This document shows, one piece after another, positions 15,702-36,920 of a stretch of 37,522 nt of DNA. The position numbers were made by a program, and so were the translations under genes. Positions within the stretch are counted from its first letter, which is position 1. Every line of letters begins with the position of its first letter. The notes under the pieces are model-generated. The model was not told the origin of the DNA. It did not search any database and worked only from the letters and a program-made list of their open reading frames with translations. The stretch covers positions 1 to 37,522 of the forward strand of contig JARWMV010000138.1 in NCBI GenBank assembly GCA_030998015.1. Reading direction: 5' to 3'. Source of the stretch: Ceratorhiza oryzae-sativae. Taxonomy: Eukaryota > Basidiomycota > Agaricomycetes > Cantharellales > Ceratobasidiaceae.

Positions 15702-16131
15702 CTTTTTTCCTCTAACGAAGGAAAACAGTTTAATATAATTAATTATTTTTTAAAAAAGTGTAAACCCTATAAAAGAAATAGTAATCCAAAATTTATGATA
15801 AATAAACTTTTGGAACTAATCTTAGTTACGAGGCTAACTTTTTCTAAAAGTTTATTTCTGAAGTCTTCTGGAATGTAATTTTTACATTTTTATTTTAGTA
15901 GACATGCCTTTGTTACCCAAATCTCTACAGACGACCCTTAGACTCGACAGAGTCTCCCGGTCCGGGACCACCCGGGCGGAAGGGTTGGGCAGCAGATGAT
16001 CCAAATTTTCGCACCAGATTCCGATGTTTGGGGAAAGTTTTGAGTCTTATAATCGCCTGAATCATAAATTGTGTGGCAAATAGGGCATTCAAAATAACAG
16101 AACTCGTGTTTTCACTTTATAATTTAAAAAT

Positions 16132-22112: not shown

Positions 22113-22886
22113 ATGCTAAACACAACACACTTTATTAGTTCTCCTTTAGAACAATTTGAAGTTACAAACTTAATAGGAATTAATGCACCTATATTAGGTT
22201 TTTTTAATTTAACTTTAACAAACTTAGCTCTTTACTCTATTGTATTATTATTTTTAACACTAGGTCTACACTTCGTGTCAAGTAATAATAGAAAATTAGT
22301 TCCATCTAAATGGTCTATTGCTTTAGAAAGTTCATTTGCAAGTATAAACACAATGGTTAGAGATCAAATAGGAACAACGAATGAAGTATACCTTCCATTC
22401 ATCTATTCTCTATTCTTTTTCATTATCATTGCTAATCTTATCGGAAACGTTCCGTACAATTATGCAATTGCAACTTCCTTAGTGGTAAGTTTAGGGTTAA
22501 GTGTAACTATTTTCCTTGGGGTAACCATCTTGGCTTTGTCAATCCACAAAGCAAGATTTTTCTCTTTCTTTATCCCTAGTGGTTGCCCATTAGGGTTAGT
22601 GCCATTATTGGTATTAATCGAATTAGTTTCTTATGTGGCTAGAGCCGCATCTCTAGGAGTACGGTTATTTAGTAATATTATGGCCGGTCACGCATTAGTT
22701 AAAATTCTATCTACTTTCTTATTCCAATTAATGAGTAGTGGAGTGATTATTGCCATAGTAATGTTAGTTCCGTTCGCACTTTTCGTTGCAATTCTTGGTC
22801 TAGAAATTGCTGTTTCTGTTATCCAAGCTTATATTTTCTGTTCATTAACTTGCTCGTACTTAAAAGACGCTATCGATCTACATTAA
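22113..22886 (+). CDS. atp6: ATP synthase F0 subunit a
   Basis: 257 residues, full length for a fungal ATP6. The protein forms the proton half-channels of F0 against the c-ring in the inner membrane. It starts MLNTTHFISSPLEQFEV and has several hydrophobic helices. The conserved block ASLGVRLFSNIMAGHALVKI carries the essential Arg, and it ends SYLKDAIDLH. No inserted element or frameshift is present. A HEG starts 12 nt after the stop, and two further partial copies of the C-terminus lie downstream (23839-24276, 27568-27951). By analogy with Rhizophagus mitochondria, the present C-terminal half may have come in with a HEG and displaced the native one. The first downstream copy starts at VPYNY, residue 113, which would mark the junction. 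Confidence 0.96.
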   Translation: MLNTTHFISSPLEQFEVTNLIGINAPILGFFNLTLTNLALYSIVLLFLTLGLHFVSSNNRKLVPSKWSIALESSFASINTMVRDQIGTTNEVYLPFIYSLFFFIIIANLIGNVPYNYAIATSLVVSLGLSVTIFLGVTILALSIHKARFFSFFIPSGCPLGLVPLLVLIELVSYVARAASLGVRLFSNIMAGHALVKILSTFLFQLMSSGVIIAIVMLVPFALFVAILGLEIAVSVIQAYIFCSLTCSYLKDAIDLH

Positions 22887-22897
22887 ATATAAAAGTA

Positions 22898-23749
22898 ATG
22901 ACAATGTTAATGCGACTAAGAAACACAGCATCAATATTTAACTCAATAAATGTTATGCAAAATCAATATTTACAACTAGTACGGTTTAACTCTTCTAATA
23001 GTAAATCAAGTATTATCAGCACAATTAAACCTTCAAGTTTGTCTAATGATACTGATACAACTTCTTCAGAGGTAACGCTATTAGGCCCAGTGCAAAATTC
23101 GAAATTGAGTAATGGCTTTTTAACTAAAGAACAAAGAGCTGCCATTACAATTCCACAAGCAAAGGAGGAAATCCTGGTAGGTCTGGCCCTTGGTGATCTA
23201 AGCATGAAAAGACACCAAGCTAAAACAAAAACAGCAAATCCTGTATTACTTTTTGAGCAAGGGTTAATCCACAAAGATTACCTTTTACACCTTTACGGTA
23301 TATTCCAGGATTTTTGTACCACACCCCCGAAAATTTCTGACAGATTGCCCAGCAAAGTAACAGGTAAAACCTATAGCCGAATAAGATTTCAAACTGTATC
23401 ATTGCCCTGCTTTAACAACCTGTTTGATAGTTTTTATTCTGAGGGAATTAAAACAATCCCATCAAATATAGGGCAACTGGTTACTCCTCTGGCCCTTTGT
23501 TACTGGCTATGTGACGATGGTTCTTACTGTAAAACAACATCTAGAATTATTATTTGTACCGACTCTTTTTCTCTAGAGGAAGTAAATTTATTGGCTAATA
23601 TTCTAAATGACAAATGGAATTTTGAGTGTTACGTCAATAAATATGGTAATAATTATAGAATACGAATTCCGAAAAAAAGCTTGGCTAAAGTGCAAGTTTT
23701 ACTGAGAGACATAATGCCAAGCATGATGCTTTATAGAATTGGTCTTTAG
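22898..23749 (+). CDS. LAGLIDADG_2 endonuclease next to atp6
   Basis: 283 residues from the first ATG after the atp6 stop; the frame is open further upstream into atp6. Motif 1 is EEILVGLALGDLSMKR (about residue 90) and motif 2 is ALCYWLCDDGSYCK (about residue 200). The ending MPSMMLYRIGL is typical. The first ~85 residues (Ser/Asn-rich) have no recognised domain. It lies between the complete atp6 and a displaced atp6 C-terminus, the arrangement expected for a HEG that moves with a gene tail. It carries no hairpin insertion and serves as the intact reference for the pseudogenes at 954, 24960 and 30265. Confidence 0.9.
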   Translation: MTMLMRLRNTASIFNSINVMQNQYLQLVRFNSSNSKSSIISTIKPSSLSNDTDTTSSEVTLLGPVQNSKLSNGFLTKEQRAAITIPQAKEEILVGLALGDLSMKRHQAKTKTANPVLLFEQGLIHKDYLLHLYGIFQDFCTTPPKISDRLPSKVTGKTYSRIRFQTVSLPCFNNLFDSFYSEGIKTIPSNIGQLVTPLALCYWLCDDGSYCKTTSRIIICTDSFSLEEVNLLANILNDKWNFECYVNKYGNNYRIRIPKKSLAKVQVLLRDIMPSMMLYRIGL

Positions 23750-23838
23750 TGAAATTTCCTATCTGGGTGCCATTAAACTGCACACATTCCCTTTGAAAAA
23801 TGATTCTTCACTCCCCTCCCTTTTGTGCCCGGGCGCGG

Positions 23839-24276
23839 GTGCCTTATAACTACACTATAACTACATCTATCGTAGTAAGTTTAGGACTAAGTTTAACAAT
23901 CTTTATTGGAGTTACAATCTTAGCTTTATCAATTCACAAAGTAAGATTCTTCTCATTCTTTATTCCATCCGGGTGCCCGCTGGGATTAGTTCCCTTATTA
24001 GTATTAATCGAGTTGATCTCTTATTTCGCACGAGCTGTGTCTTTAGGAGTTCGATTGTTCGCTAATATGATGGCCGGTCATACTTTAGTAAAAATATTGT
24101 CTACATTCCTATTCCAAATGTTCAGTAGCAGTGTACTGGTTGCAGTATTTACTTTAATACCATTTGGTATATTTGTAGCAATCATTGGATTGGAGCTTGC
24201 TGTTTCAATCATACAAAGTTATGTATTCTGTACTCTAACTTGCTCATACTTAAGAGATGCTATTGAATTACACTAG
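23839..24276 (+). pseudogene. atp6: Displaced atp6 C-terminal copy 2 (from residue 113)
   Basis: VPYNYTITTSIVVSLGLSLT to SYLRDAIELH then TAG, 145 codons, open throughout and 3'-coterminal with atp6. It includes [19 protein letters not shown] with the key Arg. Many codons differ from the complete gene, as expected for a separate lineage rather than a recent duplicate. Upstream is CCCCTCCC and a GC-rich TGCCCGGGCGCGGGTGCC stretch, with no ATG at the joint. It probably is not translated, but its intact frame over 145 codons suggests recent displacement, or use as a donor or trans-spliced part. Confidence 0.88.
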
Positions 24277-24858: not shown

Positions 24859-25174
24859 CCAAGTCTTTTGACAAAATAAACTTCAGCTGTTTTCTTTCTT
24901 AATTTCCCAATAAAGAAATTAAGCCTAAAACATCGTGAGTATTGAGATTTAGAGACTATCACAATAATATATTTTTATACATGTTTTATTTTTCAAATCT
25001 TACAATCTTAGCGATTGTGCCCTATTTTTTAGTAATTGCATTTTTTTACGTTGTTGTAATTCCAACAATCGGATCTGGCTTGGATATCATTAGCGGGTTG
25101 GTAATTTGTTCTCTAGTACCTGTTAAACCTCAAAGGCTAACTAAGCAGGAACGAGAAGCTTTTTCACTTTCAAA

Positions 25175-25348
25175 CCCCCGCTTAGGGTCATCCAGCATTG
25201 TATTTATATATAAATACATGCTGTTGACCCGAGGGGTTTGGTTATCGAGGCCGCGTTCGCGGCGAGCCGCGCGCACGCCAGGGCCGACTTGGCTTGATTA
25301 TTGACCTTAAGGTCAATATGAGCCAAGGCGTTCGCAGGCGTGCACGGG
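25175..25348 (-). repeat. Family E element, 174 bp, flanks TCAAA/TCAGA
   Basis: CCCCCGCTTAGGGTCATCCA to GCGTGCACGGG, with the ATGTATTTATATATAAATAC stem, GCCGCGTTCGCGGC and a TTGACCTTAAGGTCAA hairpin. Direct 5-bp flanks TCAAA (25170-25174) and TCAGA (25349-25353) differ at one base. The HEG frame is restored across the join. Confidence 0.85.
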
Positions 25349-25753
25349 TCAGAATTGTTACAACAAATTATAGTTGGGACAATAATGGGTGACCTGAATA
25401 TCCAAAAACGAACTATTAACAGTAATGCTCGTTTAAGATTTCATCAGGGAATAATTCACGAACAATACCTTATTCACTTGTACGAATTGTTCAGAGCCTA
25501 TTGTTCATCATCACCCAAAACATCTGATCGGCTTCCCGATAGACGAACGGGTGAGATATACACTCAAATTGTATTTAATACCCTTGCGCTACCGTGCTTT
25601 AACAAATTTTACAACCTATTTTATTTGGATGGTAAAAAAATAGTTCCAACCAACATAGGTGATCTTCTTACACCTGTTGCTTTAGCCTATTGGATTGCAG
25701 ATGATGGAGGTTTTTGCAAATCTACTCAAAGAGTTACATTATCAACACATTCT

Positions 25754-25926
25754 CCGCGCGCGTTAGTTGCTGGTGGGACTTGTCCCACCAACCAACGTGA
25801 GCAATCGCAACCGTTTGCGATTGCTAGTGCGCGGCATAATATCGATATTTAGCCGCCGGCTGAAAATGACGAACGGTCGTCATTTTCTACGAGGGAATCT
25901 TTAGGATTCCCTCTAACGCCGGCGGG
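25754..25926 (+). repeat. Family A element copy A6 (173 bp)
   Basis: Complete copy inside a HEG just after its second motif. Confidence 0.95.
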
Positions 25927-26237
25927 CTGAAGTTGAACTTCTAATGAACGTTTTGGGGGACAAATTCGGTTTAAATTTTGCTCTTGACAAACAAGTTTCT
26001 GGTTTTAGAATTCGAATTTCAGTTAAATCATTAGCTGATCTTCAAAGATTATTATCGCCGCACAGGCCTCCTATGATGTTGCATAAAATAGGTTTATAAT
26101 CGCGCTGGGGTATTTTTTTCCACTTCCTAAAGAAATCCCTAAGGGGACCCCTCCCGGAGTTTACAGGGTTTTAGACAACCTAAAAAGTTTCTTACAATGT
26201 ATAGATCTTAAACAAAATTTACATGAAGAGGTAAGTT

Positions 26238-27316
26238 TACAGTGATGGTTCTTTTTATGTTACAATATCTAAAAGTACCAAAAATATAGTAGGTTGGTCA
26301 GTTGCTGTTAATTATCAGATTGTATCTTCTATTAACAGTGCTAATCTTGCAATGATGGAACAAATAAATTCATTTTATGGTAATATCGGAAATATTTCTG
26401 AGCAGCCGCATAGCGCGCTGCAAACATGAAAAAGATAATACTTTAAGATTTACTGTAAGTGGTTTATCAAATTGCAAAATAGTTCAGAATCATTTTTTAA
26501 CCTATCCCTTATTAACTTATAAAACCGTCGCGCTGGGACGCCCGAATGGATGCCCGTAGGGCTTGGCCAAAACCACCCCCAAACAATGCAGCGTAGCTGC
26601 ACATGTTTGGGGGTGTTTTTGGAAATCACATTTCGGGCGTCCCCAGCGCGGCCGGCTCGCCGAGAATCGATGATTTGCGAAGGCAAATCTACATCGATTC
26701 TCGAGGGTTAGTTTATTTCCAATTATGGTCTTCTATATTAGACATTATGTCAACTGGGGCTCACTTTACTTTAGAGGGATTATTAAAAATAGTTTCACTT
26801 AAAGCTCAATTTAAAAAGGGCTTATCTGAATTACTGGGAACTAGTTTTCCCAATGTCAGTCCGGCCATTAAACCATCTTTTGAGCCTAACCTGGCCTTAA
26901 TGAATATTCATTGGCTTTGTGGGTTCATAAACGGGGATGGCCACTTTGGACTTAGAATTAGACATAACACTAAAACTTCTTTGGGTTCTAGTTGTGATGT
27001 TATTATTTCTATTAGCCAAGACGATGTAAGTTTAATTACTTTGGAAAATATTGTTGAATTTTTAGGTGTGGGTAGAGTTCATTCTTCTGGAAGAACAACT
27101 TATGTCTATTTTTTAGGTTCCCTTAAAGATATAAACATTTTTATTAACAAGTTTAAAGAAGTGAATTTATTGGGTGCCAAAGCTCTAGATTATGCTGATT
27201 TCTGTAAAGGGATCGAAATAATCAATAGTAGAGAGCATCTAACTCTAGAAGGTTTTAATAAGCTTGAGATTCTTTCCCAAAATATGAACTCTAAGAGAAC
27301 TAATTTTGGAAATTAA
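26238..27316 (+). pseudogene. LAGLIDADG_1 HEG interrupted twice
   Basis: It starts inside the first motif (SDGSFYVTISKSTKNIVGWS). After a GCAGCCGCATAGCGCGCTGC hairpin (26404-26423) it continues HEKDNTLRFTVSGLSNCKIV to TYPLLTYK, then composite F3, then LVYFQLWSSILDIMSTGAHF. The second motif is WLCGFINGDGHFGLRI (about 26911-26958). It ends HLTLEGFNKLEILSQNMNSK and RTNFGN then TAA. The N-terminus before SDGSF is not convincing, so the first motif lacks its hydrophobic half. The 3' half is open for over 550 nt. CCCCTCCC follows the stop, as after other intron HEGs. Confidence 0.8.
26525..26707 (+). repeat. Composite element F3 inside a HEG
   Basis: Full F1-type composite. HEG codons on the two sides (LLTYK and LVYFQLW) join sensibly when it is removed. 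Confidence 0.88.
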
Positions 27317-27396
27317 ATAAATATAATGTCGCACTAATCCCCTCCCTGTCTAATTGGTTAAGGTCCCTCATAGAGGGACCCTACCTCGAAGTCATA

Positions 27397-27546
27397 CCCT
27401 AGGTGGGCTAGAAAGGCCCATGCCCACCTAAGGGCGCCGAATCGAAGATTCCTATGCCCCGTGGGTATGGATATCGAGGCCGCGTTCGCGGCGAGCCCGC
27501 TATCTCGCCCGGGCCAGCGCTCTGCGCTGATCCAGGCGAGAACGGG
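27397..27546 (-). repeat. Family E element, 150-bp form, TCATA duplicated
   Basis: CCCTAGGTGGGCTAGAAAGG ... GCGAGAACGGG, flanked by TCATA at 27392-27396 and 27547-27551. It is the inverted partner of 31253-31402. It shares the GAGGCCGCGTTCGCGGCGAG hairpin and terminal GGG/CCC with the longer-known form, but has different arms. Confidence 0.92.
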
Positions 27547-27567
27547 TCATATTAAATATAACGTTGG

Positions 27568-27951
27568 AGCTAAAGGTAACCTAAAAGGAACACCTTTAGC
27601 TTTAGTACCTTTATTAGTTTTAATTGAATTAATTTCTTACTTAGCTAGAGCCGTTTCTTTAGGAGTACGATTATTTGCTAATATTATGGCCGGGCACACT
27701 TTAATGAAAATCTTGTCTACATTCTTATTCCAAATGTTCACAAGCAGTGCTTTAATGTTTGTACCCTGTAGACCCCCAACAATTGATAGCAGCATGTACT
27801 AGTACATGCTGACGACAGGGTAATAACACTTGTTCCATTTGCATTATTCACATGTATTATCGGACTAGAAATTGCTGTTTCATTTATCCAGGCCTACGTA
27901 TTTAGTATTTTAGTTTGTTCTTATCTAAAAGACGCTATAGATCTACACTAA
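27568..27951 (+). pseudogene. atp6: Displaced atp6 C-terminal copy 3 (from about residue 159)
   Basis: [20 protein letters not shown] to TSSALMFV, a 59-bp palindromic insertion, then ITLVPFALFTCIIGLEIAVS to SYLKDAIDLH and TAA. It contains [19 protein letters not shown]. It is shorter than copy 2 at the 5' side and frameshifted by the insertion, so it is not translatable as such. It is an older displaced tail or a donor relic. Confidence 0.88.
27767..27825 (+). repeat. 59-bp ACCCTGT...ACAGGGTA insertion in atp6 copy 3
   Basis: CCCTGTAGACCCCCAACAAT...GACGACAGGGTA with the inner stem AGCATGTACTAGTACATGCT. GTA occurs at 27764-27766 and at the end of the insert. Removing it restores MFV|ITLVPFALF. 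Confidence 0.9.
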
Positions 27952-28024
27952 TAAAGTTTAAATTAGTTATATCTGGGCTAACTCGGTACGGAAAGACATG
28001 TCAAATTTGTAAATCCAATATAAT

Positions 28025-28242
28025 AAATAGTAATCCAGACTTTATGACCCGTGCACGCCTGCGAACGCCTTGGCTTAAGCCAAGGCGGCCCTGGCGTGCG
28101 CGCGGCTCGCCGCGAACGCGGCCTCGATAACCATACCCACGGGTCAACAGCATGTATTTATATATAAATACAATGCTGGTTGACCCTAAGCGGGGGTATG
28201 ATAAATAAATTCTTGGAACTAATCTTAGTTACGAGGCTTACT
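28025..28242 (+). repeat. Displaced copy of rnl intron 8 5' sequence, split by an E element
   Basis: AATAGTAATCCAGACTTTATGA (28025-28047) and TAAATAAATTCTTGGAACTA...ACGAGGCT (28202-28240) match 15779-15834 in rnl intron 8 (AATAGTAATCCAAAATTTAT, GATAAATAAACTTTTGGAAC). The intron copy is the empty site for the family E insertion. Confidence 0.85.
28048..28196 (+). repeat. Family E element, 149 bp, TATGA duplicated
   Basis: CCCGTGCACGCCTGCGAACG ... AAGCGGGGG. TATGA is at 28043-28047 and 28197-28201. Internal stems are CGCCTTGGCTTAAGCCAAGG, CCGCGAACGCGG and GGGTCAAC...ATTTATATATAAAT...GTTGACCC. Confidence 0.95.
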
Positions 28243-28244
28243 CC

Positions 28245-28700
28245 GCCGGCGGAGGATCGTGCTAGCACGATCGTAGAGGAGCCGGCGGTTCCGCGGCCTC
28301 CAGTCATGCTTGCACTGTTTTACCGTCTCGTGTCAACATAGTTGACCGGCCGGTAAAACAAACATGACCTTATGGCCGCGGAGTATTGTTCTGAGGTCTT
28401 CGTTGTTAAGAATCCAGCATTTTTGGATTATAAAAATAAAATTATAACCCCTCCCTGAGTTAGAGTGAGAAGTTATTCAAACTCCATTTAGAGGTTATTG
28501 GACCATTCCATGAGGGTTGGAGTGTGAAGTTATTCAGACTCCATAGACCGGATTCGTATTGTGGTTATTTCCCAAATTGGGACAACTAATTTACCCTACA
28601 GGACAATTGGTAGGTAAAATTTGCGGAAAATTGATCTATACGAGTTGCAGAACGCCCAATTTATTAAAATTATTACATCTTGTTATGTAAAACTCTTAAG
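28245..28700 (+). other. Hairpins and unassigned sequence
   Basis: A GGATCGTGCTAGCACGATC hairpin (28254-28272) and a GTTTTACCGTCTCG hairpin (28317-28358) come first. A short open frame EYCSEVFVVKNPAFLDYKNK follows, then CCCCTCCC. Two imperfect direct repeats (GAGTGAGAAGTTATTCAAAC near 28462 and GAGTGTGAAGTTATTCAGAC near 28518) and an open frame LYELQNAQFIKIITSCYVKL just before A7 complete it. No gene recognised; probably HEG and intron debris. Confidence 0.45.
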
Positions 28701-28873
28701 CCCGCCGGCGTTAGAGGGAATCCTAAAGATTCCCTCGTAGAAAATGACGACCGTTCGTCATTTTCAGCCGGCGGCTAAATATCGATATTATGCCGCGCAC
28801 TAGCAATCGCAAACGGTTGCGATTGCTCACGTTGGTTGGTGGGACAAGTCCCACCAGCAACTAACGCGCGCGG
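28701..28873 (-). repeat. Family A element copy A7 (173 bp)
   Basis: Complete reverse-orientation copy. Confidence 0.95.
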
Positions 28874-28989
28874 GATCCCTAATAAGTTTAAGGGTGGGCA
28901 AAGTTTAGGGTTTAATTACAAAGGCCCACACCTGGCATCCTATACAAGATACACAGGTAGGCCGACTTCTAAAGGTCGGCAGTTGGGTG
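28874..28989 (+). other. Unassigned open stretch between two family A copies
   Basis: A frame without stops reads KGGQSLGFNYKGPHLASYTR then YTGRPTSKGRQLG. After A8 a possible continuation is GEHPFELNYSK then stop. No family recognised. It could be the middle of an ORF split by A7 and A8. Confidence 0.4.
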
Positions 28990-29162
28990 CCCGCCGGCGT
29001 TAGAGGGAATCCTAAAGATTCCCTCGTAGAAAATGACGACCGTTCGTCATTTTCAGCCGGCGGCTAAATATCGATATTATGCCGCGCACTAGCAATCGCA
29101 AACGGTTGCGATTGCTCACGTTGGTTGGTGGGACAAGTCCCACCAGCAACTAACGCGCGCGG
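28990..29162 (-). repeat. Family A element copy A8 (173 bp)
   Basis: Complete reverse-orientation copy, 116 bp after A7. Confidence 0.95.
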
Positions 29163-29254
29163 GGAGAGCATCCCTTTGAATTGAACTATTCTAAATAAAA
29201 TAACTCGTGTTTTCCCGATACAAAAAAAATAAATGAAAAATATAAACAAAATAA

Positions 29255-29436
29255 CCCTCGAGAATCGATGTAGATTTGCCTTCGCAAATCATCGATTCTC
29301 GGCGAGCCGGCCGCGCTGGGACGCCCGAAATGTGATTTCCAAAAACACCCCCAAACATGTGCAGCTACGCTGCATTGTTTGGGGGTGGTTTTGGCCAAGC
29401 CCTACGGGCATCCATTCGGGCGTCCCAGCGCGACGG
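29255..29436 (-). repeat. Composite element F4
   Basis: Reverse complement of the F1/F3 type, including the terminal GAGAATCGATGTAGATTTGC hairpin. It follows a possible HEG start (MKNINKIT at 29233). Confidence 0.9.
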
Positions 29437-29439
29437 TTT

Positions 29440-29836
29440 TTAAACTAGAGACAGCTAAAAAGGAATTGGAATTAGCTCTAAAATCCTATAAACCTCTTTC
29501 TTTATGTGAAACTCAGAATTTTAGAGAGCTTGTAAATGGATTCTTTCAAGCCGAAGGGACTATCAGTGCTTCTTTTTTAGGATCTTCTTCGGCTAAAGTT
29601 AATCCATACTTCATGACCCGTGCACGCCTGCGAACGCCTTGGCTTAAGCCAAGGCGGCCCTGGCGTGCGCGCGCTCGCCGCTTCGCGGCCTCGATACCCA
29701 TTACCCCTCGGGTCGTCGACCCTAAGCGGGGGCATGATTAGTCAAAATTATAGTGCTGAAAGCCTAAATTTCTTCGTTCAAATTTTCTATGAACTTAATC
29801 AAGTCGGCAGAGTTACTGTCTTTTTAAATCAATATC
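29440..29836 (+). pseudogene. LAGLIDADG_1 HEG remnant
   Basis: FRELVNGFFQAEGTISASFL is a degenerate LAGLIDADG motif, followed by SSSAKVNPYF. A family E element intervenes, then ISQNYSAESLNFFVQIFYEL and NQVGRVTVFLNQYP. It resembles the first domain of the single-motif HEG at 10310. Sequence after 29836 is repeat, so the rest of the domain is lost. The preceding ~45 nt may be its N-terminus, with the ATG at 29233 upstream of F4. Confidence 0.7.
29617..29732 (+). repeat. Family E element, 116-bp form, CATGA duplicated
   Basis: CCCGTGCACGCCTGCGAACG ... AAGCGGGGG, lacking the ATTTATATATAAAT stem. CATGA is at 29612-29616 and 29733-29737. The HEG frame joins as VNPYF-MISQNYS across one copy. Confidence 0.95.
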
Positions 29837-29846
29837 CGCGGCATAA

Positions 29847-30007
29847 CCCTGTAGACCCCCAACAAGGCAATGGCCTCCCAATGCGTTGGCCCTACGGGCC
29901 AACGTATTGGGGGGGCCATTAGCTTATTGGGGGGCGGATGCCCCTCAAACAATGCAGCGTAGCTGCACATGTTTGAGGGGCAGGAGACGACAGGGTACTG
30001 CCGCGGG
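29847..30007 (+). repeat. Family T array upstream of tRNA-Arg
   Basis: ACCCTGTAGACCCCCAACAA ... GACGACAGGGTACTGCCGCG GGG, with CCAATGCGTTGGCCCTACGG and CCCCTCAAACAATGCAGCGT stems. Confidence 0.85.
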
Positions 30008-30018
30008 GTGAGTTAATT

Positions 30019-30090
30019 ATTCTCTTAGCTCAATGGTTAGAGCTACATTCTTCTAAAATGTCTATTTTGGTTCGAGTCCGAAAGAGAATA
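30019..30090 (+). tRNA. trnR(ucu): tRNA-Arg (anticodon UCU)
   Basis: A complete 72-nt cloverleaf. The acceptor stem is ATTCTCT/AGAGAAT (7 bp) with discriminator A, and the D arm is GCTC/GAGC with loop AATGGTTA. The anticodon stem is ACATT/AATGT with loop CTTCTAA. The T arm is TTTGG/CCGAA with loop TTCGAGT. The anticodon TCT reads AGA/AGG arginine codons, which are common in the genes here. It is the only tRNA found in the window. It sits between hairpin arrays in a region of dead HEGs, so it either escaped disruption or moved there with flanking repeats. Confidence 0.95.
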
Positions 30091-30264
30091 TTGCCCTACC
30101 CTATCTCGTGTCAACTATGTTGACCGAGATAGAGGCCAGACTAAATTTTTCTATGTTTACCCTTCTGATCCATAACCGAAGGGAAGGGGGAAACTCGCTT
30201 TCGCTTTCTTTGGACCTCCAAGTATTGGCGCCCGGTCAATGAAATTGACACGGCCGCCAATACC
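30091..30264 (+). repeat. Hairpins downstream of tRNA-Arg
   Basis: CTATCTCGTGTCAACTATGT...GAGATAG (30104-30134, also at about 20254) and a reversed GTATTGGCG...CGCCAATAC hairpin (30223-30264). Confidence 0.75.
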
Positions 30265-30683
30265 CTACGGCTACAACTCTTGACAATAGAACAGGAAAAT
30301 TTTACCCTAGTATTAGATTCAATACCTGAACATTTGCTTGCTTTAACGAGTTATATGAACTTTTCTATCCTGAAGGTAAAAAATACTATGGAGGATCGTG
30401 CTAGCACGATCGTAATCGGCGGCTCCGCGGCATAACCCTGTAGACCCCCAACAAGGCAATGGCCTCCCAATGCGTCACAAACGTATTGGGGGGGCCATTA
30501 CCTTATTGGGGGGCGGATGCCCCTCAAACAATGCAGCGTAGCTGCACATGTTTGGGGGGCAGTAGACGACAGGGTACTGCCGCGGGGTGAACTATTAACA
30601 CCTTCAGGTTTAGCATACTTTCACCAAAATGGTGGCCCTACGAGGCAGCTGCAGTAATTCTGGCCGACGGAAGTTGAACATGA

Positions 30684-30799
30684 CCCGTGCACGCCTGCGA
30701 ACGCCTTGGCTTAAGCCAAGGCGGCCCTGGCGTGCGCGCGCTCGCCGCTTCGCGGCCTCGATACCCATTACCCCTCGGGTCGTCGACCCTAAGCGGGGG
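30684..30799 (+). repeat. Family E element, 116-bp form, CATGA duplicated
   Basis: Near-identical to 29617-29732. CATGA is at 30679-30683 and 30800-30804. Confidence 0.95.
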
Positions 30800-31029
30800 C
30801 ATGAAGTAACACTAGTGACAAACAATTTTACCAAAGACGAAGAAGAGCTTTTATATCAAGTTTTAGTAAATAACCCTCGAGAATCGATGTAGATTTGCCT
30901 TCGCAAATCATCGATTCTCGGCGAGCCGGTTATTAAATTAAAATGCACTATTCGAAGAGATATAAATGTTTATTTAATTGATATTTCTTACCCGTATACT
31001 CTTCCCTTACAGGCCCCCGCTAATCGATA

Positions 31030-31072
31030 CCCCTGCCAAGACGTGCGCTAAAGCGCAGTTCTCTAGGCAGGG
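31030..31072 (+). repeat. Family C hairpin C7 nested in another hairpin
   Basis: CCCCTGCC...GGCAGGG inserted within TAATCGAT...ATCGATTA, a variant of the GAATCGATGTAGATTTGCCT hairpin seen intact at 29258 and 30877. This shows one family landing in another. Confidence 0.85.
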
Positions 31073-31106
31073 TGTAGATTTGCCTTCGCAAATCATCGAT
31101 TAGTGG

Positions 31107-31155
31107 GAGCCCTCCGCGCTTAGGCCGCCCTGCGGGCGATCAAAGAGCGCGGAGG
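31107..31155 (+). repeat. CCTCCGCGCTTAGGCCGCCC hairpin
   Basis: CCTCCGCGCTTAGGCCGCCC...GGGCGATCAAAGAGCGCGGA GG. A sister copy is at about 32128-32175, and a reduced one is in rnl intron 7. Confidence 0.8.
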
Positions 31156-31252
31156 GGAAGAGGTTAGGGTCTAAATCTATGCCTCTATTGCGAGACTTGA
31201 TAAAAGTCACTATGCACCCAACGATGCTTTACAAGTTAGGTCTTTAATATGA

Positions 31253-31402
31253 CCCGTTATCGCCTGGATCAGCGCAGGGCGCTGGCCCGGGCGAGATAGC
31301 GGGCTCGCCGCGAACGCGGCCTCGATATCCATACCCACGGGGCATAGGAATCTTCGATTCGGCGCCCTTAGGTGGGCATGGGCCTTTCTAGCCCACCTAG
31401 GG
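31253..31402 (+). repeat. Family E element, 150-bp form, TATGA duplicated
   Basis: CCCGTTATCGCCTGGATCAG ... CTAGCCCACCTAGGG. TATGA is at 31248-31252 and 31403-31407. It is an inverted copy of 27397-27546. It inserted at the stop-codon end of the HEG above. Confidence 0.95.
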
Positions 31403-31564
31403 TATGAAAATGAATTTTCTTGACTTTGGCTCGTGCCAAAATCACCCTGGTATCTATGAAGAGGGCCCATACAGGCACCCCTCTGTTTTAATTTATTTTC
31501 ACATATGAGCCTATTGTTGAAGGTTATACTGAAAATCTTACTTCAATTCCCCACAGAATCGTCG
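31403..31564 (+). other. Unassigned sequence before A9
   Basis: Partly open frames only (DFGSCQNHPGIYEEGPYRHP; EPIVEGYTENLTSIPHRIV). These may belong to the GIY-YIG remnant ending at 32431, but no motif supports that. Confidence 0.35.
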
Positions 31565-35664: not shown

Positions 35665-35818
35665 ATGGTTCAACTTCTAATTATTATAATATTGGTTATG
35701 GGTTCCATATTAGTTTAAGCTCTAAAGATTTGCCTCTACTGCTTGATATACAAAAACGATTGAATAATGCCCCCGCTCTATCGGCTAAAATCTTAGGTGT
35801 AACCCAAGATTTCAGCCG

Positions 35819-35861
35819 CCCTGCCTAGAGAACTGCGCTTTAGCGCACGTCTTGGCAGGGG
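35819..35861 (-). repeat. Family C hairpin C8
   Basis: CCCTGCCTAGAGAACTGCGC...TTGGCAGGGG, immediately left of a family E fragment. Confidence 0.88.
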
Positions 35862-35871
35862 TAATAAAGCG

Positions 35872-35982
35872 GAGGGTCAACGACCCGTGGGCATTGTTAA
35901 CGAGGCCGCGTTCGCGGCGAGCCGCGCGCACGCCAGGGCCGCCTTGGCAAGCCAAGGCGTTCGCAGGCGTGCACGGGTCATA
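35872..35982 (-). repeat. Family E element, rearranged copy
   Basis: GAGGGTCAACGACCCGTGGG, GAGGCCGCGTTCGCGGCGAG, GCCTTGGCAAGCCAAGGCG and the end GCGTGCACGGG followed by TCATA. The left end is joined to C8 and no matching left TCATA was found. Confidence 0.8.
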
Positions 35983-36623: not shown

Positions 36624-36703
36624 GGCGAGGCCGCGTTCGCGGCGAGCCGCGCGCACGCCAGGGCCGCCTTGGCAAGCCAAGGCGTTCGCAGGCGTGCACG
36701 GGT
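36624..36703 (-). repeat. Family E fragment (about 80 bp)
   Basis: GGCGAGGCCGCGTTCGCGGC to GCGTGCACGGG. The CCCCCGCTT end is missing and the flank is TAATA, so the insertion joint is degraded. It lies in the group II intron after the HEG stop. Confidence 0.85.
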
Positions 36704-36920
36704 AATATTAGCCAATGTGCTACTTTTTCTTCGAATAACTATACTATTATTGCGGATAGAAACTAAAGTATTTCTTTATACCGTGGCAGTATTTATTATT
36801 GTCATTTATATTCAGGCAATTGGATCTGGTATAGGAACCTTTAGAAGACTATTCGTGTAAATTTACCTCAGTTGGTCAAATTTACGTCCATATTTCAATA
36901 AAATTGCTTTAGTGTTGCTT
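36704..36920 (+). other. Group II intron sequence between HEG and domain V
   Basis: AT-rich. One short frame is hydrophobic (FLYTVAVFIIVIYIQAIGSG) but has no recognisable family, so I treat it as intron sequence. Confidence 0.4.

Follow-up and report, generated by a model that had tools for sequence, protein, structure and literature searches.

Mitochondrial hairpin elements of Ceratorhiza oryzae-sativae whose guide, right end, and target appear to change together

Introduction

How does a repeat without an open reading frame (ORF) come to occupy dozens of sites, each beside much the same five letters? The question is raised by a repeat family, herein called family E, in a 37,522-nucleotide stretch of DNA from Ceratorhiza oryzae-sativae (the window; positions 1–37,522 of contig C138 in a 48.8-Mb assembly of 253 contigs). 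The window contains mitochondrial ribosomal RNA (rRNA) pieces, group I and group II introns, a cox1 exon, and LAGLIDADG and GIY-YIG ORFs under code 4, as well as atp6-like ORFs recognized by eye. Judged by its rRNA, cox1, nad, and LAGLIDADG content, the host DNA of family E is likely mitochondrial. The initial annotation described an ORF-less element of discrete length forms with an oriented preferred site and a 5-bp target duplication. The element, its length forms, and its oriented site (mostly WW-[T/C][A/T]TGA) are borne out by the present analysis; the duplication is not. On balance, family E seems likely to be a non-autonomous mitochondrial hairpin element that carries the 5-mer at its right end as its own, complementary at 36 of 46 sites to an internal tetranucleotide (the guide), and that is moved as a folded single strand finding its target by the same guide.

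Architecture of family E

Bodies of family E measure 116 to 262 bp and comprise three hairpins and a varying guide. According to sequence and folding, a left hairpin, which begins at element base 1 in three types, is followed by a small hairpin (CGCGAACGCG), the linker CTCG[A/T/G]TA with one or two further bases, the 4-nt guide with CCC, the right hairpin, and finally GGG with four guide-complementary letters and an A. The ends are exact over dozens of sites, CCCG on the left and GGGGG or GGG on the right. By eye, they have only CCC/GGG in common and are no terminal inverted repeats. Minimum free energy folding of five right ends as DNA, with no imposed structure, returned the same 7-bp stem of guide-CCC and GGG-flank in all of them, despite upper hairpins that are unlike among the types E1, E2, and E3.

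No group I or group II intron model of Rfam matched within the E copies of the window; at a lax threshold, positions 28,000–31,450 gave one tRNA and ten microRNA-family matches, all under the cut-off. The core pattern had no exact match in the viral_contigs and genome_contigs collections, and in plasmids it had partial matches in 63 records (five of them listed), none of which spans 80% of the query.

Insertion sites and counting rules

The pooled sample of about 328 kb, overlaps included, consists of the window, 200 kb drawn from four further contigs, and loci from searches of the assembly; C-numbers denote contigs of this assembly and L-numbers loci taken from it. A 22-base head pattern with at most two mismatches matched the assembly 785 + 758 times and its reversed control 0 times, which excludes a chance origin of the repeats. 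Among the matches listed, 22 of 22 lie in C81–C231 and 57 of 57 zero-mismatch matches in C67–C205; none of those listed lies in C1–C66 or C232–C253.

A site is defined by a head of the CCCGT type that has a tail of one of four types no more than 600 bases behind it. Copies that agree in their 18-base flanks were merged, because redundant and mirror-image stretches are common in the assembly, leaving 56 distinct insertion sites. Left out before counting were heads for which no tail was listed in the next 600 bases, five headless tails, and copies headed by CCCGAGCACG, which escape the head pattern; two such tails, with guide CAAA and right flank TTTGA, are in line with the pairing rule described below. 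Another family, C, adjoins E on the left (CGGGA) at nine of the 56 sites and on the right (CCCGC) at nine, two sites having both. Removal of the family C-flanked sites and of one shifted site (ATGAA) leaves 39 sites with both flanks.

Long mirror-image stretches occur in C67, C77, and C81 (L012 versus L013: 8.3 kb, 99.9%); they are either true inverted duplications or chimeric long reads.

Covariation of guide, right end, and target

At the sites without family C on the right, guide CATA stands with right flank TATGA at 20 of 21, CAAA with TTTGA at six of six, AATG with CATTA at seven of seven, and CACA with TGTGA in three of three rows of one nested locus. The right flank pairs with the guide over four of four letters at the 36 of 46 sites named above. 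The observed pairing sum was reached in 0 of 20,000 shuffles, a significance overstated by the shared ancestry of the copies. Three of the four guide positions vary, each with a change on both sides.

The left 5-mer follows the guide as well. It ends in TGA in 33 of 33 cases with guides beginning in C (three rows being one nested locus) and in TTA in 11 of 13 with AATG (Fisher test, 6e-9). Since the low-GC host sequence contains TATTA 2.7 times as often as TATGA, background is no explanation for the TGA preference. A second Fisher test, leaving out the shifted site (ATGAA), gave 3 T of 4 versus 2 of 26 (p ~0.009, calculated by hand). Left-side mismatches fall mainly at base 1, where T faces the G of the AATG guide, a pairing that wobble would permit. 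Bases −7, −6, +6, and +7 are A/T in 44, 42, 46, and 43 of 47, to which host composition may contribute. Comparison of the subtypes thus shows guide, right end, and putative target changing together. A pairing of the left junction (TGA-CCCGT) with the internal ACGGGTCA, considered by eye, was dropped because E3 does not follow it.

The two flanks of E3

The 5-mers of both sides are identical at 27 of the 39 two-flank sites, and their last four bases at 36. Six of the 12 discordant sites are E3 copies with guide AATG and right CATTA, the left 5-mer being TATTA in five and TATGA in one. Three are copies of the nested locus (GGTGA/TGTGA), and the remainder are single cases of GTTGA/TTTGA, TCTGA/TTTGA, and TTTGA/TATGA. 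The last looks like a recombinant, because its right flank is common to another copy. The right 5-mer complements the guide exactly in 11 of these 12 cases.

A larger set was obtained by joining every listed E3 tail in C67–C102, as far as the listed heads extend, to its nearest head. The tail pattern requires a non-G eighth base, and copies with a family C right flank fall outside it; the head pattern requires A at −1 and non-G at −5. Thirty-eight CATTA tails were paired, and five CATTATCC rows (296–307 bases from the head) were dropped, because in L016 this is a tail-only copy downstream of a complete one. Sixteen TGTGA-type tails (15 TGTGA and one TGATT) remained unpaired, their head being of E1 type. 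In the resulting 33 rows, the right 5-mer is CATTA in all, with a left TATTA in 23 (five distinct right 8-mers), TATGA in six (five), and CGGGA in four (three), so that no pair is identical. Assembly-wide, the 100 E3 tails listed of 235 are followed by CATTAT or by the nested locus's TGTGATTT or TGATTTAT, and the 5-mer before the E3 head, in 100 listed of 482, is TATTA in 63, CGGGA in 22, TATGA in ten, and CATTA in five. Among the matches listed, a T directly follows CATTA in every CATTA copy, though later bases vary.

Because the right CATTA of E3 is constant while the left varies, the right 5-mer goes with the element and the left is the target: to judge from these rows, the former is element-borne and the latter target-derived. 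The target would hence be kept on the left only, without duplication, in E3, and by extension the right 5-mer of E1 and E2 would be element-borne, too.

Staggered-cut transposition by an imported transposase, with a 5-bp or 4-bp target duplication at YATGA, would account for the many sites with identical 5-mers or identical last four bases, for the single 5-mer at the empty paralogs of three filled sites, and for E1s, where base 1 is C on both sides at both sites. That this base agrees between the two sides had been taken as a sign of duplication; it does so in the exact copies first described and fails in E3. The TATGA/CATTA rows reject a plain 5-bp or 4-bp duplication for E3, unless all of the discordant copies are recombinants. 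Moreover, the right 5-mer follows the guide, the target is asymmetric and used in a single orientation, and the ends share only CCC/GGG. We therefore consider this explanation unlikely. The same discordance, together with the lack of terminal inverted repeats, sets family E apart from miniature inverted-repeat elements of DDE transposons.

Copies in the window and empty sites

The features of the window and of the related empty sites are compiled in Table 1. The five copies originally reported with identical 5-bp repeats proved exact in their coordinates when the sequence was re-read by position, and a sixth is real and likewise exact, with flanks that differ (TCTGA next to the CCCG end, TTTGA next to the GGGGG end). 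A suspected seventh (1011–1309) has an intact head with TATGA beside it; its GCGGGGG tail is missing, with family-F-like sequence in its place, and it stays a possible copy. The E3 copy and the truncated E3-type head are additions to the original list. The two CATGA copies have the same body in unrelated flanks and are, therefore, separate insertions.

Table 1. Family E copies of the window, their parts, and paralogous empty sites
Feature	Position	Strand	Details and basis
E1a body, 149 bp	28048–28196	+	Sequence check
Left 5-mer TATGA (target) of E1a copy	28043–28047	+	Paralogous empty site 15777–15807
Guide CATA of E1a copy	28132–28135	+	Reverse complement of right-flank TATG; folding
Right 5-mer TATGA of E1a copy, read as the element's own 3' end	28197–28201	+	Putative, by extension from E3
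E2 body, 150 bp	27397–27546	−	Left TATGA 27547–27551; right TATGA 27392–27396; guide CATA 27466–27469
E2 body, 150 bp	31253–31402	+	Left TATGA 31248–31252; right TATGA 31403–31407; guide CATA 31330–31333; folding
E1s body, 116 bp	29617–29732	+	CATGA both sides; guide region CATTA 29699–29703, incomplete pairing with CATGA
E1s body, 116 bp	30684–30799	+	CATGA both sides; guide region CATTA 30766–30770
E1b body, 174 bp	25175–25348	−	Left TCTGA 25349–25353; right TTTGA 25170–25174; guide CAAA 25237–25240
E3 body, 208 bp	35770–35977	−	Left TATGA 35978–35982; right CATTA 35765–35769; guide AATG 35892–35895
E1a head, left TATGA 1310–1314	1298–1309	−	Tail replaced by family-F-like sequence; TCATA 1006–1010
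Truncated E3-type head, left TATTA 36703–36707	36691–36702	−	Sequence check
Empty paralog of the 28048 site, with a single TATGA	15777–15807	+	Sequence comparison
Empty version of the TTTGA site filled in L005/L010 (paralogous)	16083–16105	−	Also in L022
Empty version of the TATGA site filled in L019 (8245) (paralogous)	16054–16075	−	Sequence comparison

A comparison of filled and empty sites had been proposed as a check. Empty sites were found for three filled ones, as paralogs within one assembly, each holding exactly one intact 5-mer. When reading frames were compared at ten discordant or shifted sites, excision of the element with one 5-mer gave a frame that aligns over the junction with ORFs of the GIY-YIG or LAGLIDADG kind at sites 37 and 55, and a patchier alignment at site 11; the result is compatible with either copy as the ancestral one.

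Proposed mechanism

By comparison of its copies, the element inserts 3' of a 5-mer that resembles the complement of its guide, in one orientation. A folded single strand, preferably single-stranded DNA and possibly RNA, would be cut after the 5-mer at both ends, and the cut ends would be joined to TATGA-CCCG. The predicted junction is GGGGGTATGA followed directly by CCCG and, for E3, GGGGGCATTA followed directly by CCCG. The joined strand would then be transferred to a new TATGA-like site whose 5-mer pairs with the guide, the moving enzyme being supplied from elsewhere.

Several observations weigh against such a course. A bulged guide class, CCATTA, at nine of the 46 sites has an ungapped match of only two of four (seven TATGA) or one of four (two CATGA), and, by eye, TATG pairs there only with a looped-out T. 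The L005/L010 site has guide CATA and yet TTTGA on both sides, and the left CGGGA at nine of the 56 sites, which is a family C end, fits no guide. The nested 262-bp copies have left GGTGA, where a family D relative has TGCGA and the D copy of the window TGTGA (by eye); as these relatives are unlike GGTGA, the left copy at the nested locus is not the unchanged target. At three further empty sites, the 5-mer itself has diverged (TCCGA, AACTC, and TGCGA), and for six E3 sites no empty site was found among the 40 scored of 582 candidates.

The enzyme is part of the same difficulty. A transposase or integrase had been suggested as the mover, and neither Y1_Tnp (PF01797), with a control matched in five of 14 genomes, nor Phage_integrase (PF00589) has a match in the 48.8-Mb assembly. 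Of 20 mitochondrial ORFs scanned from 130 ORF clusters, 19 belong to LAGLIDADG, GIY-YIG, or respiratory families, among them one with NUMOD/HTH motifs and one with a sub-threshold BpuSI_TRD match; one is without a match. Helitron_like_N occurs at 11 places, all in contigs other than those with listed E. A Helitron was dismissed as mover, since Helitron ends do not fit family E.

Other routes of movement

Family E might also spread without a dedicated enzyme, if replication stalls at its hairpins and the growing strand jumps to another template at a TATGA-like microhomology, copies the element, and returns. Such switching accounts for an element-borne right copy with tolerated left mismatches and for the composite and chimeric copies that E forms with families C, D, and F. 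It sits badly with ends that are exact over dozens of sites and with a target of a mere 5 bp that changes with the guide, and appears rather improbable.

Slightly less credible still is a circle recombined site-specifically through core homology, as by a Crypton-like tyrosine recombinase; the element would then supply the right core and the target the left one. The short, oriented direct repeat of fixed length, present once in empty sites and carried by the element on one side, would suit this route. Cryptons have short direct repeats at both ends, of 4 or 6 bp in fungi, and TATGG termini are common to most CryptonS (PMC3212892); family E has such repeats in the 27 identical 5-mer pairs. The tyrosine recombinase itself is missing, PF00589 being unmatched in the assembly, and complementarity of guide and flank over unrelated right hairpins is not predicted by this route. 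Cryptons are not known to carry a guide.

RNA-mediated movement, in which the guide of a transcript pairs with the target before reverse splicing or reverse transcription, is the least probable, for although guide pairing works equally for RNA, T/C tolerance at base 1 opposite the guide G suits G-U wobble, and RVT_1 is plentiful in the assembly (150 places, from 150 scored of 811 candidates), the listed RVT_1 matches fall outside the contigs with listed E, the window's copies match no Rfam model of a catalytic group I or group II intron core, and neither a tail nor a duplication of variable length is seen.

Comparison with known systems

A folded, guide-addressed family E would find its closest counterpart in the IS200/IS605 elements. 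The right end of IS608 consists of guide, hairpin, linker, and cleavage site, the target is kept on the left, and the donor is sealed precisely; in IS200/IS605 elements, a changed guide leads to a changed target (PMC5934647). Family E shares with them the insertion 3' of a short target that is kept left, the element-borne right end, and the guide tetranucleotide 5' of a subterminal hairpin (PMC5934647). The guide is evident from its full complementarity to most right flanks and from the folds, and the cleavage site would follow from these. Family E differs in that no Y1 transposase was found in the assembly, in having no ORF, in its one guide as opposed to GL and GR, in the continuity of guide stem and hairpin, and in its mitochondrial location. 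It thus appears to work like an IS200/IS605 element and is not classed as one.

REP and BIME sequences, which are cleaved by TnpA-REP, are likewise short, ORF-less palindromes with a hairpin-adjacent tetranucleotide proposed as a guide (PMC8266576). In contrast to the three hairpins, greater length, and varying guide of family E, REPs are bacterial repeats of 20 to 40 bp (PMC3733652) and have a conserved GTAG. In IS110 elements, recombination is addressed by an element-encoded bridge RNA that pairs with target and donor (PMC11208160). DEDD_Tnp_IS110 (PF01548) has no match in the assembly, and the guide of family E is 4 nt within the element.

Mobile hairpins are already known as a kind in fungal mitochondrial DNA. 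GC clusters, double-hairpin elements, and small inverted repeats lie in intergenic DNA and homing-endonuclease ORFs and are optional between relatives, and the yeast M4 cluster is tied to a TAG motif (PMC2800124, PMC6140425, PMC7218506, PMC4464245). Family E resembles them as a dispersed, hairpin-forming mitochondrial repeat with filled and empty sites. For such elements, no internal guide matched to a flank is described in the available excerpts of the open-licence literature.

Neighboring families

Family C (CCGCGCGCGTTAG...GCCGGCGG, mostly 172 or 222 bp; L001–L050 and the window) often has flanks that are mutual reverse complements, for example, gaagtc[C]gacttc and cagcatgt[C]acatgctg. At family C sites without E at either side, an arm of at least 3 bp is found in 13 of 79, some of which are paralogs, against a shuffled mean of 4.3 and a maximum of 13 in 2000 shuffles. 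It is as if family C inserted in the center of palindromes.

Composites of C and E recur (L012 2258, L014, L015, L016, L019, L027, and L030) with joints GGCGG-GA-CCCG or GGGGGC-CCGCGCG, as if C had inserted, with small deletions, at the ends of E, or E at the ends of C. At L030 1500, an E2-type head and an inverted E1-like head (CCCGAGCACG) form a head-to-head dimer without tails. At L002 1858, L004 1500, and L018 4742(−), a 262-bp E with guide CACA is nested in hairpin family D and carried along with it.

Three atp6-like stretches of the window (22,113–22,886, 23,749–24,276, and 27,461–27,802; by eye) lie beside LAGLIDADG ORFs, which suggests repeated replacement of the 3' end.

Implications

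To our knowledge, no settled enzyme or rule accounts for the spread of fungal mitochondrial GC clusters, double hairpins, and small inverted repeats. Tentatively, and with somewhat less confidence than in the reading of family E given above, mitochondria may be host to a guide-addressed transposon: a non-coding hairpin element whose own 4-nt address pairs both with the right end of the element and with the target. Such an element would have been re-addressed at least three times (TATG, TTTG, TGTG, and CATT) by joint changes of guide and end. If this is true, base-paired target choice of the IS200/IS605 kind would also operate in an organelle. The rule by which family E spreads seems to be legible in the element itself, since guide, right end, and target vary jointly, and this joint variation makes the mechanism open to testing with oligonucleotides and isolates.

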